The notes: generated from the letters alone by a model not told the origin. A stretch of 50,319 bases of DNA from Campylobacterota bacterium (GCA_030837195.1 JAUPKZ010000002.1:1-50319); one strand, 5' to 3'. Counted from the first letter of the stretch, positions 1-5,895 are shown. Program-made: numbers and translations.

Positions 1-2030
1 TTGGAATCGACAAGCCGATTTCGATGGAGGTAAACCGTCGAAGCGATCGCGCGATTATTGATTTTGTCAATGATGTTTTTGCACCTGCGATGGCGGAACG
101 AGAAGTAGTACACTTTAAAAAGATTGCACCTTTGCATGAAGCAAAAATCGATAGCTGTATCGAGTTGTTTAACCGATATGCTGATTTTAGCCCAATCAAA
201 GTCGATTTTGAAGCTAAATATGACAAGCTAAGTACTCCGCAAGAAAAAGCAGAAGGAACACTTGCCATCTTGGCAACACCAGTGGATCACACAGTTCCTG
301 ATTGTGAAGATGAGTGTTCCGAATCGCTTCAAGAGCTGCGCCACATCGCTTCGTTTATCGATGCAGTCATACGAGGTGAACATCCTCAATACGCCGATGT
401 CAAAAAAGCCTATGACGAAGGTAAAAAAGCGATTGCTATTCTTTTTGATTCTCGCAAATTTATGCTCCCTCTAAAACAGAGACTACTAGAGCTTGGCATT
501 CGAGCCAAAGTAAGCGATAGCGGGAATTTCTTTGACACCAAAGAGGTCAACGATATTTTTATTGTTCTTAAACTCCTATCGCTTATGGACAAACTCGATT
601 GGGAAAATTTAACTTCTAAAACCAAATATGTTCTCATCGGCGCACTGCGATCAAATATTTTACGATGCAGTGCAGATGAGATTGAATCAACTCTGCGCAC
701 ACAAGCACTCCCATCCATTGTAGAGCGTTGGAAACAACTCTCATTTTATAAACCTATTCATGAAATGATCGAGATTATCGCTCAGGAGAGTGGATTACTC
801 CATTTCTATCGTCATATTGATGGATATGAGCAACGAGAAGCCAACATTGAACAGCTTATCACTATGGCGTATGAATATTCAACTCACAGCGGATCGGATT
901 TTAATGGCTTTGTAGAAGAACTTGAATCTTTTATCCATAATGAAAACATCTCCGAAGATGAAGCATTTGTAATAGTAGATGGTGTCGGATCGATTGAGAT
1001 TGTTACGATGCACGGTTCCAAAGGGTTAGAGTGGCCAATGGTCATCATCGGAAGTATGAGCCGCTCGTTTTTAGGGATGTCCAAACAAGAGACATTGGTA
1101 TATGATAGGTTTGAAGAGAAGGAGTTGATCGGATTTAAAATCGGTGATTATGAACCGTTGGTCTATAAGTTCATCAAAGATCGTATCAACCAAAAATATA
1201 TTGCTGAGCGCAAACGCCTCTTTTATGTTGCGATGACCCGTCCTGAGCACCATCTGGTTCTCTCAACTGCTATCAACAACTATAAAAACAGTGTGCGTTT
1301 ATGTTACAACTGCGGCAATAACAACTATTTTACCCTCATTAACAATGTACTTCAAATCGATTATACAAAGCTCTATGAGAGAAATATTGATAAGGTTCGT
1401 AATATCGATGTGTTTTACCCTAGGGAGTGGAGAGGAGAGGATGTCGGTGCTGCCCAAATAGAGGTTGTTTCACCTGTTATGATTGAGCCAAAATTATTCA
1501 CTCACCAATCAACGATTCGCCCTAGCGGTAAAATAGATCTATTTAGCTTCTTGGATGATGATACTTTTGATGCCGCAAATGCTGGGTCGATTGTTCATAA
1601 AATAGTGGAGAAACACTGGCATGAATTGGGTCGTGATGATATTTTTGAAAACTATTTTGCAGAGTATATGGTTCCAGAGAGCTTCAAAAACAACATTATC
1701 CGTATGTCTCGTAATTTTTGTACCTCTAAACACTACAAAAAACTCATAGAGGGTGCAGAAGGCTACTTTGAACATGATTTTGTGATGATGCAAGAAGGAA
1801 ATCGCATCCGAGGCAGCATCGATCTGTTTTACTTTGATAAAGAAGCGGATGGATGGGTAATTGTAGATTTTAAAACAACAGCCCTAAGAGGTCAAGACAC
1901 TAAAACTATGATGCTTGAAAACGGTTACGACACTCAACTAAAGATGTATGAACAGTATCTCTTAAGCGTGGTAAAAGAAAAAATTGTCTCTAAAGAGATT
2001 TGTTGGTTAAATGAGCATATAGAGGCATAA
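1..2030 (+). CDS. UvrD/RecB-type helicase with C-terminal PD-(D/E)XK nuclease (AddA-like), 5' end outside window
   Basis: The reading frame is already open at base 3 and reads GIDKPIS before the first ATG at 24, so the gene starts upstream of the window. The remaining ~675 residues contain (numbering from the ATG) a motif-IV-like NRRSD at 4-8, superfamily-1 motif V (VTMHGSKGLEW, from about 327), motif VI (AERKRLFYVAMTRPEH, from about 394) and a RecB-family nuclease signature: D600 in GSIDL, D615-x-K617 in VDFKT, then Q638 and Y642. The Walker A half of the helicase must lie outside. Family knowledge says such proteins process double-strand ends (AddA/RecB) or act in defence islands. The next gene is convergent and starts its stop codon 3 nt away. 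Base composition matches the following island genes rather than the chromosome after 5.5 kb. It could be the housekeeping AddA; the neighbours argue for an accessory copy. Confidence 0.85.
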   Translation, partial: GIDKPISMEVNRRSDRAIIDFVNDVFAPAMAEREVVHFKKIAPLHEAKIDSCIELFNRYADFSPIKVDFEAKYDKLSTPQEKAEGTLAILATPVDHTVPDCEDECSESLQELRHIASFIDAVIRGEHPQYADVKKAYDEGKKAIAILFDSRKFMLPLKQRLLELGIRAKVSDSGNFFDTKEVNDIFIVLKLLSLMDKLDWENLTSKTKYVLIGALRSNILRCSADEIESTLRTQALPSIVERWKQLSFYKPIHEMIEIIAQESGLLHFYRHIDGYEQREANIEQLITMAYEYSTHSGSDFNGFVEELESFIHNENISEDEAFVIVDGVGSIEIVTMHGSKGLEWPMVIIGSMSRSFLGMSKQETLVYDRFEEKELIGFKIGDYEPLVYKFIKDRINQKYIAERKRLFYVAMTRPEHHLVLSTAINNYKNSVRLCYNCGNNNYFTLINNVLQIDYTKLYERNIDKVRNIDVFYPREWRGEDVGAAQIEVVSPVMIEPKLFTHQSTIRPSGKIDLFSFLDDDTFDAANAGSIVHKIVEKHWHELGRDDIFENYFAEYMVPESFKNNIIRMSRNFCTSKHYKKLIEGAEGYFEHDFVMMQEGNRIRGSIDLFYFDKEADGWVIVDFKTTALRGQDTKTMMLENGYDTQLKMYEQYLLSVVKEKIVSKEICWLNEHIEA

Positions 2031-2032
2031 TA

Positions 2033-2962
2033 TTAAAGCCCTTTTGTATAAGCGGCAATTTTATCCATCAGCATATCATTCATCCATTGAGGCTCAAGGA
2101 TACGGATATGTGGAAGATACCACTGTACAATCGGCAATACTTCCATCTCATGCGTTACATTTAAAACAACTTCTATTGACCCATCGGCGTCACGCCCTTG
2201 AATACTTTGTCCACGATATGGTTTGCGTTCAAAATAGGGAGCAATCTCTTTATCGACCCATAAGCGTACTTCAAAGGGTTTATCCAATGTAAACCACACC
2301 GAAAATGCTTTTTCGATTGTTAGGGCAACTTCTTTTGGATAGGTAAATATTTCATCGAGTGTGGCAATAGTGCTGAGTGATTTGAGATGGAATTTTTTAA
2401 AAGTGTCTTTTGAGTCGGCATCAAACGCCAAGAGATACCAATACCCATCGAAAAATGCCAAGCGAATGGGCTTGAGTTTGACATTGCGTCTTTTTTTATT
2501 CACAGTAGTATAAGCAGCGGTGATGAGATTTTTGCTTTTGATTGCATTTTCTAGAAGAGTAAATGTTTTGAGATGCTCTTCCAAAAGAGTTTCAGAGTCC
2601 ATGCTGGCAAAGAGAGGATGATCGAGCTGACAGGTAACTTGTTCGAGCAGTTGGTGTGCTTTGTTATAAAAAGCAGGGCCGGCATGTTTTGCCAAAGAGT
2701 CAAGGACTCCTAGTACAATGCGTTCTTCATTGGCAAGACCATCTTGCGCACTGTTACGGCTCAGCTTCCAACGCCTGCCGTCACAATAGACACCACTACC
2801 CGATAATGCTTCATGAAGATCGCGCTGGAGAGTTTTAGTGCTGACATTGAACTCTTCTGCAAGGTCTTTTATCGTTACCCCATCAGGTGAGCGAGAGAGT
2901 CGGTCATAGATATAGCTAAGACGGTCATATTTTGAGCCGCTTTTTTCGAAATGAAGTGTCAT
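2033..2962 (-). CDS. WYL-domain transcriptional regulator (HTH + WYL + WCX)
   Basis: The 309-residue protein has an N-terminal winged helix-turn-helix of the DeoR/HTH_11 type (about residues 12-67, with VTIKDLAEEFNVSTKTLQRD), a middle WYL domain centred on GYWYLLAF (173-180), and a WCX-like C-terminal extension (about 215-309, FEVRLWVDKEIAPYF). WYL regulators bind a ligand, thought to be nucleic acid or nucleotide, and often control phage-defence and DNA-damage operons. The gene is divergent from the tandem AAA+ gene, and the 129-nt gap between them carries a palindromic operator, so it probably controls that gene and itself. Its 3' end abuts the helicase gene convergently. The start at 2962 follows an in-frame non-coding gap and matches the expected HTH position. 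The family is certain from the sequence; the target is inferred. Confidence 0.88.
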   Translation of the reverse strand: MTLHFEKSGSKYDRLSYIYDRLSRSPDGVTIKDLAEEFNVSTKTLQRDLHEALSGSGVYCDGRRWKLSRNSAQDGLANEERIVLGVLDSLAKHAGPAFYNKAHQLLEQVTCQLDHPLFASMDSETLLEEHLKTFTLLENAIKSKNLITAAYTTVNKKRRNVKLKPIRLAFFDGYWYLLAFDADSKDTFKKFHLKSLSTIATLDEIFTYPKEVALTIEKAFSVWFTLDKPFEVRLWVDKEIAPYFERKPYRGQSIQGRDADGSIEVVLNVTHEMEVLPIVQWYLPHIRILEPQWMNDMLMDKIAAYTKGL

Positions 2963-3017
2963 TTATATCTCACTAGTAAATTAATTTAATATTTTAGCAA
3001 AAAAAAGAGACAAAAGA

Positions 3018-3047
3018 TGTCCAAATAATGTGGACAAAAATTGTCCA
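3018..3047. promoter_or_regulatory. Operator cluster between the WYL regulator and the AAA+ gene
   Basis: Bases 3031-3047 form the 17-nt palindrome TGGACAAAAATTGTCCA, with 7-nt arms TGGACAA/TTGTCCA around AAA. A further TGTCCA half-site sits at 3018-3023, giving three half-sites in alternating orientation. The cluster lies just upstream of a TATAGT hexamer (3058-3063) and a CATAAT hexamer (3066-3071) that could serve as the -10 of the AAA+ gene. Binding here would therefore occlude that promoter, and possibly the divergent one as well. That the WYL protein is the ligand is inferred from position only. Confidence 0.65.
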
Positions 3048-3091
3048 AAAATGTTTGTATAGTTTCATAATTTGAAATAACGGAGCCTACT

Positions 3092-5197
3092 ATGAATACA
3101 AATCAAACTACACTCAATCTGAGAATCAATGACTCTTATTATGTTGAAGAGCACAGCAAAGAGCTCGTGGCGTATTGGTCTTTGCTATCTATCGTAAAAT
3201 TGGGCGGAATGCGAAATTTTATGGATGATAATCGTATCAGATATGATGATGTAGCAGATTTTTTAGGATTGGGTGAGTATATCAACAGTGATGAAAAATT
3301 GGATCGCATAACTGTATTGAAAAGCTTTGAGAAACTGCTTCGCAAGTTGGAAAAATCCACTAAAAAATCATCGGTCATTTTAAATACCAATATTAAAAAG
3401 CTTTCATCGTTGATAGGACTTGACAGCGTTGAACAGGATATTCTCCATTTTGTAGCTTATCTTAATTATTATGATATTTTGGATGAAGCAACCCGCACAA
3501 TTGGGGATTTAACGGGAGAGCAAATACAGGTTGTTCTAAGTCTCTTGGTAGGGCATTCGAGAGAAGAGATAAAAAAGGCTATTTCGCCCAAAGGACGGTT
3601 GACTCAGGCAGGGCTCATAAGTATCGATCGTGACGGCAGCCATTCACTTAAATCAAAAATAGGTGTAGCCTACAGCGGGTTTATCGAAAAAATGATGACA
3701 TGTGATGATGACGATATCGAATCGATAATCAAAGACTCAGTTCGTCGCTGTGAGATGAACAGTTTGACATTAAACGATTATACGCATATCAGTGAGGAGC
3801 TCGAGATCTTGGTTTCGTACATGCGCACAGCGATTGAAGCGAAGCAAAAAGGGGTCAATATTCTTTTATACGGACGCCCCGGTACTGGGAAAACAGAGCT
3901 GGTTAAAACCATTGCCAAAGAGTTAGAGATTGAACTTTTCGAAGTAAGTTATGCCGATGAAGACGATGACCCCATCGATGGAGATCGCCGTTTACGCGCT
4001 TATCGAACCGCTCAGACACTTTTGCAAAAGAAAAAAATCATTCTGATGTTCGATGAGATCGAAGATGTTATGAAAGATGAAGATGTCGGATTGTTTGGTC
4101 CCAAAAAAAAGCAAAATAAGAAAGGGTGGTTTAATCGCATACTCGAGAACAATCTCGTTCCATCCGTTTGGATTACAAACAATGCTGATTCAATGGACGA
4201 TGCTACGATTCGACGATTCGATATGGTTTTGGAGATTCCAGTTCCACCAAAGGCGAAGCGTCGAGAAATTATCCAAAGTAACTCGGGTGCTTTTTTGAGT
4301 GATATGACCATAGAAAAAATAGCCAAAAATGAAAACATCTCACCGGCGATCATTACACGCGCTGCCAAAGTGGTTCAAGCGATTCAAGATCAAACACAAG
4401 AACCATCTTATGCCTTTGAGATGATTGTTGAAAATACTCTAAAAGCTCAAGGATATAGAGGACTTGAAAAAGAGAGTGCCATAGAGTTGCCATCAAGCTA
4501 TGATCCATCCTTTGTCAATACCGACCATGATCTTAAAGAACTCGTTAGCGGTATTTCCAAACACCAAAGTGCGCGTATCTGTTTGTATGGCGCACCTGGG
4601 ACTGGTAAAAGTGCATTTGGACAATGGATCGCACGAGAACTCGATCGACCATACTTGCTCAAAAAAGGATCAGACCTGATGTCGATGTGGGTTGGGGGAA
4701 CCGAGAAAAATATCGCTCGTGCCTTTAAAGAAGCAACAGAAGAGAATGCAGTTTTGATCTTCGATGAAGTAGATAGCTTTTTGCAAGATCGACGATCTGC
4801 TAAAGCATCATGGGAAGTAACGCAGGTAAATGAGATGTTGGTGCAGATGGAAAACTATAACGGTATATTCATCGCTACGACTAACCTGATGGATGGGTTG
4901 GAACAAGCTTCACTGCGACGATTTGATCTCAAGCTTGAATTTGGATACCTAAAACCCCAACAAGCTTTAGAGCTCTTTACGAAAGAGGCTACATTGATGG
5001 GGATTGGCACTATCTCAAGAGCCGTCAAAAACGATATCAAAAACTTGATAAGCCTCGCTCCGGGAGATTTCGCGGCAATTCGACGACAGAGTCGATTTTC
5101 CCCGATAAAAACAGCAGATGATTTGTTGGAACGATTGGTTGATGAAGTCAAAATCAAACAGTATGATGATTCTAAAAAGATGGGGTTTTTGCGATGA
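3092..5197 (+). CDS. Tandem AAA+ ATPase (two AAA modules), island-encoded
   Basis: The 701-residue protein has a roughly 240-residue helical N-terminal region without recognised motifs, followed by two AAA+ modules. Module 1 has Walker A GRPGTGKT (261-268), Walker B ILMFDEIED (about 317-325) and a TIRRFD arginine-finger/sensor segment. Module 2 has Walker A GAPGTGKS (500-507), Walker B VLIFDEVD (about 554-561), a WVGGTEKNI pore-loop-like segment, ATTN sensor 1 and SLRRFD. Both modules look catalytically intact and resemble FtsH/CDC48-type remodelling ATPases, but no protease or nuclease domain is fused. The next frame, a cREC-like fragment, starts at 5194 with an ATGA overlap, so the two were translationally coupled. 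A divergent WYL regulator and operator lie upstream. The substrate is unknown; a role in a defence or stress cassette is an inference. Confidence 0.85.
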   Translation: MNTNQTTLNLRINDSYYVEEHSKELVAYWSLLSIVKLGGMRNFMDDNRIRYDDVADFLGLGEYINSDEKLDRITVLKSFEKLLRKLEKSTKKSSVILNTNIKKLSSLIGLDSVEQDILHFVAYLNYYDILDEATRTIGDLTGEQIQVVLSLLVGHSREEIKKAISPKGRLTQAGLISIDRDGSHSLKSKIGVAYSGFIEKMMTCDDDDIESIIKDSVRRCEMNSLTLNDYTHISEELEILVSYMRTAIEAKQKGVNILLYGRPGTGKTELVKTIAKELEIELFEVSYADEDDDPIDGDRRLRAYRTAQTLLQKKKIILMFDEIEDVMKDEDVGLFGPKKKQNKKGWFNRILENNLVPSVWITNNADSMDDATIRRFDMVLEIPVPPKAKRREIIQSNSGAFLSDMTIEKIAKNENISPAIITRAAKVVQAIQDQTQEPSYAFEMIVENTLKAQGYRGLEKESAIELPSSYDPSFVNTDHDLKELVSGISKHQSARICLYGAPGTGKSAFGQWIARELDRPYLLKKGSDLMSMWVGGTEKNIARAFKEATEENAVLIFDEVDSFLQDRRSAKASWEVTQVNEMLVQMENYNGIFIATTNLMDGLEQASLRRFDLKLEFGYLKPQQALELFTKEATLMGIGTISRAVKNDIKNLISLAPGDFAAIRRQSRFSPIKTADDLLERLVDEVKIKQYDDSKKMGFLR

Positions 5198-5307
5198 GTT
5201 GTTGGAAGCTTTTTATAGATGACATCCGTAATCCACCAGATGATAGCTATACAGTAGCTAGGAGTGTTTTTGAAGCACAGTTGATGATTAGTTTTTATGG
5301 GATTTAA
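5194..5307 (+). pseudogene. N-terminal fragment of a cyclic-phosphate-processing receiver (cREC-like) protein
   Basis: A 37-codon frame overlaps the AAA+ stop codon (ATGA at 5194-5197). It reads WKLFIDDIRNPPDDSYTVARS at its core, the hallmark start of the cyclic-phosphate-processing receiver-domain family, which is related to response-regulator receiver domains and has an acidic DD pair. Family members run well past 100 residues. Here the similarity is lost after about residue 30 (EAQLM) and a TAA follows at 5305-5307. I read this as the surviving 5' end of a gene truncated by a recombination junction at about 5280-5300. It is too short to be functional, but it identifies the lost partner of the AAA+ protein. 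Confidence 0.65.
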
Positions 5308-5334
5308 GGCTAAAAAAGGTTTTAAAAGCAAATA

Positions 5335-5517
5335 ATGCAAGTTAGAAAACTGTATAATCTTAGACATACATTTGCTTCACAGCTTATAGCAGCTGGTGAA
5401 GATATGACTTGGGTAAGTAAGACATTGGGGCATAAAGATACTCAAACAACTTTGTTCTATTACACTAAGTTTATTAAAAAAGGCGAAGACGAAAGACTTG
5501 AAATAGGAGATATTTAA
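5335..5517 (+). pseudogene. C-terminal remnant of a tyrosine recombinase/phage integrase
   Basis: This 60-codon frame carries the catalytic C-terminal signature of tyrosine recombinases: R-H in YNLRHTFAS, the G-H of LGHKD, and the tyrosine pair in LFYYTKF. A full integrase has about 300-400 residues. Only the last ~55 are present, and an in-frame TAA lies just upstream at 5323-5325. It marks the right-hand edge of the higher-G+C island and implies that an integrative element was once here and later lost most of its integrase. Its last codons contain the AGGAG (5505-5509) that serves as ribosome binding site for the following ybgC-like gene. Confidence 0.8.
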
Positions 5518-5895
5518 GTGAAATTGAGAGTTTATTACGAAGATACGGATGCGGGAGGGATAGTTTATCACTCAAACTATCTAAATTTTTGCGAGAGGGC
5601 TAGAAGTGAGGCATTTTTTGCCAAAGGGCTTATGCCGTATATGGAAAATGGGCATTTTGTAGCAAAGAGAGTAGAGGCGGAGTATATAGCAAGCGCGAAG
5701 CTAGGAGATGAGCTATTTATAAAAAGCAGTATAGCAGAGTTTAAGGCAGCATCATTTACTCTCTTGCAAGAGATATATAAAGATGAAAAAAAGATATTTG
5801 AGTTGCGTATTGTGCTTGTCTATACGACTTTTGATGCAAAGCCGCAAAGAATTAGCAAAGATATAAAAGATCTTGTAGTTTCTCTATTTGCTTAG
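5518..5895 (+). CDS. ybgC: YbgC/4HBT-family acyl-CoA thioesterase
   Basis: The 125-residue hot-dog-fold protein opens with RVYYEDTDAGGIVYHSNYLNF, the 4-hydroxybenzoyl-CoA thioesterase/YbgC signature, including the catalytic aspartate in DTDAGG and the YHxNY segment. Members hydrolyse acyl-CoA or acyl-ACP thioesters and are linked to phospholipid and envelope metabolism. The start is GTG at 5518, directly after the TAA of the integrase remnant, with AGGAG 8 nt upstream. It is the first gene with the low-G+C composition of the rest of the window. The downstream gene is convergent with a 4-nt gap, so this is a single-gene unit whose original upstream region was probably replaced by the island. 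Confidence 0.88.
   Translation: MKLRVYYEDTDAGGIVYHSNYLNFCERARSEAFFAKGLMPYMENGHFVAKRVEAEYIASAKLGDELFIKSSIAEFKAASFTLLQEIYKDEKKIFELRIVLVYTTFDAKPQRISKDIKDLVVSLFA

Follow-up and report, generated by a model that had tools for sequence, protein, structure and literature searches.

Do accessory genes that sit side by side at the start of a bacterial contig form one defence system, or are they the remains of several? The question arises for the first 5517 nucleotides (nt) of a 50,319-nt stretch from a Campylobacterota bacterium (GCA_030837195.1 JAUPKZ010000002.1:1-50319; hereafter the window), which makes up the whole of contig C58 in an assembly of 134 contigs, its left edge being a contig end. A preliminary description listed there a helicase-nuclease, a WYL regulator, a tandem AAA+ ATPase, a cREC remnant and an integrase remnant, and read them as an acquired segment that carries a single system. 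The five features are real, but they represent more than one system. The core unit is a divergent pair, formed by a WYL-family regulator and a 701-residue double-AAA+ protein, with copies of the palindrome GACA-N5/6-TGTC between the two genes. The explanation that we favour, to which we assign as a whole a probability of about 0.5, is that part of a WYL-controlled accessory island reached an integrase hotspot by horizontal transfer, was later truncated and now forms the start of the window, and that its control belongs to an inducible regulon under a WYL activator; a CDC48-like unfoldase would be the commonest target of this regulon here. That a truncated piece of an acquired island lies at a hotspot is ordinary. 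What is new is a mobile promoter element through which WYL regulators, an uncharacterised double-AAA+ unfoldase and many accessory genes are predicted to belong to a single regulon; a literature search, with most subscription journals outside its reach, found no earlier description of a regulon joining WYL, this element and AAA.

The regulator has the HTH_11-WYL-WCX domain order of PafBC/DriD-type proteins and is 82% and 64% identical to its counterparts in two related loci (L042 and L050, respectively); a phmmer search of PDB sequences (E 0.1) gave no match at all, and none to a solved WYL regulator. A divergent promoter region of 129 base pairs separates it from the AAA gene, with one GACA-N5-TGTC palindrome placed for each gene and a predicted -10 box 12 nt from each palindrome (Table 1). 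Both palindromes are kept in L042 despite change in most of the surrounding sequence. The layout of an operator between divergent WYL and AAA genes had been recognised correctly, and the operator is more general than was supposed. A longer candidate, TGTCCA-N7-TGGACA, was rejected, since the window matches it once when up to 2 mismatches are allowed, against 1.05 expected (not significant); the true operator unit becomes visible only by comparison across loci.

Upstream of AAA genes, GACA-N5/6-TGTC occurs in 45 of 98 loci, against 0.64 expected from dinucleotide shuffling, only with spacers of 5 and 6 and usually 55-62 nt before the start. Over all AAA loci there are 66 copies of the N5 form and 105 of the N6 form, whereas other spacers give 5-17 copies and 40 control regions give 5 and 2. 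Nearly half of the copies (82/188) stand in front of genes that are neither AAA nor WYL, at distances of 20-110 nt with a peak at 40-50 nt (composition-matched patterns, 1-4); these genes are highly diverse and encode, among others, Sir2, peptidyl-arginine-deiminase-like, DUF2779, Fic, GNAT, ankyrin and 5'-nucleotidase proteins and a DnaA paralogue. Further, a TANNNT -10 box begins exactly 12 nt after the palindrome on 139 of 376 sides (background about 13; controls 0-2), a second peak of 51 sides falls at 14 nt, and -35-like elements are nearly absent at these promoters. The pattern is that of a recognition site held at a fixed distance from the -10 box in place of a -35 element, and the 12 nt seen at both window promoters is the family-wide peak.

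To relate the element to its presumed regulator, the full element (palindrome plus -10 box) was counted in 397 Campylobacterota genomes, with the same pattern backwards as control. The mean number per genome is 4.77 where an AAA relative is present, 2.77 where WYL is present and AAA absent, and 0.93 where WYL is absent, and the backward pattern is flat (0.77, 0.86 and 0.71, respectively); therefore, WYL presence predicts the element. The difference between WYL-bearing genomes that lack AAA and genomes that lack WYL (p=1.3e-17), the presence of a WYL gene in 37 of the 39 genomes with AAA and in 127 of the 358 without it (p=1.4e-13), and the way in which spacer length, 5 or 6, tracks WYL similarity (19/21 nearest neighbours, permutation p=0.003) and not AAA similarity (p=0.16) all come from genomes related by descent, so that the p-values overstate independence. 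Recurrence of the element across the phylum in WYL-bearing genomes suggests one shared switch for many accessory, probably anti-phage, genes.

Some further occurrences deserve mention. In six loci with WYL and no AAA (L282, L285, L287, L290, L292 and L293), GACA-N5-TGTC stands about 49 nt before genes for small proteins with a glycine-rich hydrophobic start, typically GGVALAATGYGVKK, which are a predicted second target class of the element. An island-borne second DnaA (L042:14619-15950; G362:C4:1737521-1738849), 65% identical to the main dnaA (C4:73), has a WYL-type element 47 nt upstream. A near-identical element, GACAGATCATGTCATAGTTTAGTCCTAGCAT, is found in genomes G144, G302, G154, G121, G140, G052, G091 and G113 of genus g9, the first three of which have no detected WYL.

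The half-site and its spacing match those of WYL activators. The promoter consensus of the mycobacterial activator PafBC is tTGTCRgtg-8nt-TannnT (PMC5656591), which amounts to TGTC-N12-TANNNT, and PafBC, also of HTH-WYL-WCX type, sits between sigma domain 4 and DNA, standing in for the -35 contact (sigma adaptation), and is switched on by single-stranded DNA (PMC11804915). The Caulobacter activator DriD binds GAC(X)7GTC over the -35 region at a constant distance from the -10 box and is activated by single-stranded DNA as well (PMC12340889); the N5 form here, being GAC-N7-GTC, equals that consensus. PafBC, however, is a heterodimer that acts through a non-palindromic site on chromosomal DNA-repair genes, whereas the element here is palindromic, the WYL gene is single and the genes concerned belong to islands. 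DriD is a protein of 914 residues (PMC9122601), against 309 here, and controls didA, bapE, recJ and dnaG, and the accessible part of its description does not include the N6 form that is present here.

The element, its spacing and its link to WYL-bearing genomes were obtained by computation, and from them we infer that WYL binds the element and activates; it is the fixed 12-nt spacing, together with the near absence of -35 elements, that points to activation. In the window, WYL would bind both palindromes of the divergent promoter, each of which would take the place of a -35 element upstream of its -10 box. Phage attack or DNA damage would provide a nucleic-acid signal (single-stranded DNA in the case of PafBC and DriD) that lets WYL recruit RNA polymerase and so activate its own gene and the AAA-cREC operon, plus other element-bearing genes in complete islands.

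The main rival is that WYL is a repressor of the BrxR/CapW type, which occupies the palindromes and blocks both promoters in uninfected cells until a nucleic-acid ligand releases it; we take this seriously, although we think it doubtful. BrxR (of BREX) and CapW (of CBASS) share the domain layout, the defence-island setting and the promoter palindromes, on which they act as HTH-WYL-WCX homodimers that repress defence genes, and the BrxR half-sites are 5 nt apart (PMC9122589, PMC9122601, PMC9122588). Twin operators and a site before WYL itself would also suit autorepression. Yet a repressor does not need an exact 12-nt distance to the -10 box at well over a hundred site sides, nor does it call for promoters with almost no -35-like element. 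The BrxR site overlaps the -35 in Acinetobacter and the CapW sites overlap the -10, and the accessible portions of the reports on them mention no fixed -10 spacing.

Several points weigh against the explanation based on an activator. The loci that revealed the 12-nt rule also served to measure it, although the genome-wide count is largely independent. The element is present at AAA in 13 of 29 loci with a WYL gene within two genes and in 23 of 58 with none in the locus, so that a local WYL gene is no predictor and WYL would need to act from another place in the genome. Before WYL itself, in WYL loci that lack AAA, the element occurs in 0 of 20 cases. A site that overlaps the -35 region can also repress, and BrxR and CapW are close in domain layout. 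To our knowledge, no member of the AAA family has been the subject of a phage assay.

The tandem AAA+ ATPase proposed for this locus does contain two AAA modules. Across 56 of 56 aligned members, the Walker lysines, Walker B aspartates, sensor-1 asparagines and an arginine of the RRFD motif are kept in both rings, and pore-loop position 533 of ring 2 is W, Y or F, with an acidic loop in ring 1. The AlphaFold2 model has a mean predicted local distance difference test score (pLDDT) of 89, and its best Foldseek matches in the PDB are Rix7, p97 and Cdc48; the helical N-domain has no meaningful PDB fold match. Two AAA rings with intact Walker A/B motifs and arginine fingers are what a type II AAA+ unfoldase should have, and a protein-unfolding machine like CDC48/p97/Rix7 is the natural reading of the sequence and the predicted fold. 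The likeness to CDC48/p97, Rix7 and NVL lies in the two rings, the aromatic ring-2 pore loop and the best fold matches; the differences are the unmatched N-domain, a score of 83 bits against a cut-off of 803 for the CDC48 family profile (TIGR01243), and the status of a bacterial accessory gene. The anti-phage ATPase of IetAS shares an AAA module and a defence setting, but the NCBIfam profile IteA_antiphage scores 123 against a cut-off of 510 bits and matches one AAA module at a time; IetA, TRIP13 and DolB were all rejected as identities, having only the AAA module in common and scores far under the cut-offs. Once made, the protein would form a two-ring unfoldase, thread its substrate through the second ring with the aromatic pore loop, and dismantle a phage or host complex. 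Because cREC is broken, the window operon would now make only the unfoldase.

Relatives of this protein occur in 39 of the 397 Campylobacterota genomes, in many other phyla, and on proteobacterial plasmids, where they lie beside BREX, RtcB, macro-domain, Sir2 and DUF2779 genes; viral contigs hold only three, distant ones, and phage records one. We surveyed 107 AAA neighbourhoods, and compared 31 Campylobacterota loci with 40 control regions of the same genomes. Genes near AAA include WYL (21 loci), GmrSD (14), Sir2 (13), PDDEXK_4 (8) and DUF2779 (7), each against 0 control regions, but the domain profiles were built from AAA loci, which favours these counts, a circularity only partly countered by the control regions and the genome-wide counts. 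The AAA relatives thus reside in islands of variable content, among genes for restriction and genes related to NAD, and a WYL gene is very often present; this agrees with an acquired segment of defence type.

Such neighbours could also mean that AAA is the invariant component of a modular defence system in which the effector varies (FtsZ-like, DUF2779 nuclease, GmrSD, PDDEXK_4 or cREC) and is read from the same operon. GmrSD, DUF2779 and PDDEXK_4 are enriched near AAA, and at many loci the downstream gene overlaps or nearly touches it, as with five overlapping FtsZ-like genes, DUF2779 at no more than 54 nt in several loci, and cREC in L042. This is possible but somewhat unlikely, since 20 of 96 downstream neighbours are on the opposite strand, 35 of 96 are more than 60 nt away, and no effector-type partner family directly follows AAA in more than about 7 of the 107 loci. 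A stress unfoldase of general function, carried in defence islands but acting outside defence, would fit a predicted CDC48-like machine with no constant partner, and the WYL activators PafBC and DriD respond to DNA damage; however, the patchy distribution, the carriage on plasmids and the strong enrichment of restriction genes nearby make it unlikely. The FtsZ-like proteins are short; their genes overlap the stop codon of AAA in L086, L101, L094, L045 and L088 and are divergent from AAA in L037 and L042, and the proteins may be division-arrest effectors or substrates of the unfoldase.

Positions 1-5304 have a G+C content of 40.0% against 35.8% downstream, and the first 5 kb is the most deviant part of the window (first among 91 windows by G+C and first among 46 by tetranucleotide distance), though the G+C contrast is modest, with single 1-kb windows elsewhere in the window reaching 41%. 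The related island in genome G362 has 39.4% G+C, and five other stretches of that genome are higher (42.5-46.9%). As island G+C differs from its surroundings in both the window and G362, the DNA looks foreign in both hosts. The higher G+C attributed to all five features does not extend to the integrase stub, which is host-like (32.8%) and lies outside the high-GC segment. This stub is indeed a Phage_integrase C-terminus, 64% identical over 53 residues to the C-terminus of the complete integrase that occupies this site in L253. The integrase that it matches is flanked, in G328, by a restriction island on one side and the same thioesterase gene on the other, and the arrangement in G252 is alike, with type I restriction, PsyrT-like and Dsr1 proteins; the spot just upstream of this gene (L252, L253) carries such genes in two genomes of the genus. 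It is an integration hotspot in this genus, and the window stub is its scar. Fusion of an island fragment to a host contig during assembly would account for the truncation of both genes at the join near 5304, the shift in base composition and the position at a contig end. We consider such an artefact improbable, given contamination of 0.04% and an intact integrase at the same spot in two relatives, where an island is therefore to be expected.

The cREC remnant is a stub whose start codon overlaps the AAA stop (ATGA), so that the two are translationally coupled. It matches the full PF20274 protein of L042 (44% over 39 columns, E 1.4e-7), where intact cREC has the same position, right after the closest AAA relative (85% identity). 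The window copy stops after 37 codons, without the FDHDLG segment, and the complete receiver domain with its catalytic aspartates is intact in relatives only. Among AAA loci, cREC is present at only 2 of 107 and was rejected as a fixed partner; it scores above cut-off in only 4 of 298 Campylobacterota genomes. One cluster (L091:6826-17522) has ADP-ribosylglycohydrolase, AAA, WYL, FtsZ-like, Sir2, cREC and a second Sir2, then a 5'-nucleotidase-like gene, and is likely an NAD/ADP-ribose conflict cluster.

The RecB-type helicase-nuclease was identified correctly by its domains, and it is incomplete because the contig begins there, so it is no remnant. Its best NCBIfam match, addA_Gpos, is far under cut-off (equivalog score 116 against 708 bits; NF010485, 58 against 650), short of core AddA, with scores that are low partly because the copy is truncated. 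A full-length relative of 1107 residues, 70% identical, is encoded in G362 (L259/L273; C4:1715190-1724109) by the last gene of a four-gene operon, after McrB-like, McrC (PF10117) and AddB-like PDDEXK nuclease genes and about 13 kb from AAA. McrC and/or McrB-like genes also lie beside the helicase-nuclease in L044, L269 and L272. Given its operon position and this gap, the helicase-nuclease is a separate module and was rejected as a member of a WYL-AAA system; the operon is possibly a type IV restriction system coupled to end resection. A single five-part defence system is thus very improbable: the related G362 island does hold helicase-nuclease, WYL, AAA and cREC within about 25 kb, but the first has its own operon, cREC is rare, the integrase stub is a hotspot scar, and the neighbourhood survey already disfavours one system.

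Table 1. Features at the start of the window, with positions counted from its first nucleotide
Feature	Position	Strand	Basis or remark
AddA/RecB-like helicase-nuclease, 3' part, 675 codons	3-2030	+	Pfam UvrD_C + PDDEXK_1
WYL-family transcription regulator, HTH_11-WYL-WCX, 309 residues	2033-2962	-	Pfam above cut-off
Predicted -10 box of WYL promoter, TAAAAT on - strand	2991-2996	-	12 nt from operator 1
Operator 1, GACA-N5-TGTC, GACAAAAGATGTC	3009-3021		Placed for WYL promoter; kept in L042
Operator 2, GACA-N5-TGTC, GACAAAAATTGTC, inside TGGACAAAAATTGTCCA	3033-3045		Placed for AAA promoter; kept in L042
Predicted -10 box of AAA promoter, TATAGT	3058-3063	+	12 nt from operator 2; same in L042
Double-AAA+ ATPase, 701 residues, helical N-domain	3092-5197	+	PF00004 x2
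cREC (PF20274) gene stub, 37 codons	5194-5304 (stop 5302-5304)	+	Comparison with L042 cREC
Tyrosine recombinase C-terminal stub	5335-5517	+	Pfam Phage_integrase; adjoins core thioesterase gene (5518-5895)

Little is understood of how bacteria keep costly or toxic defence genes silent until they are needed. Those defence-island WYL proteins compared here whose action has been characterised are repressors, and an activator would predict the reverse mode of control for a large set of islands and link them to the DNA-damage activators PafBC and DriD. With the short DNA signature, members of the regulon can be listed from sequence even where their function is unknown, and the analysis singles out a widely spread, uncharacterised unfoldase of CDC48 type as the target met most often in these loci. 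At its broadest, and here we would accept not quite even odds, the regulon would be mobile and phylum-wide: single WYL activators would read GACA-N5/6-TGTC-N12-TANNNT and, upon invading or damaged DNA, turn on entire islands whose accessory genes are unrelated to one another (AAA+ unfoldase, Sir2, FtsZ-like proteins, nucleases, a second DnaA), and incoming genes would join the immune response by way of a promoter element.

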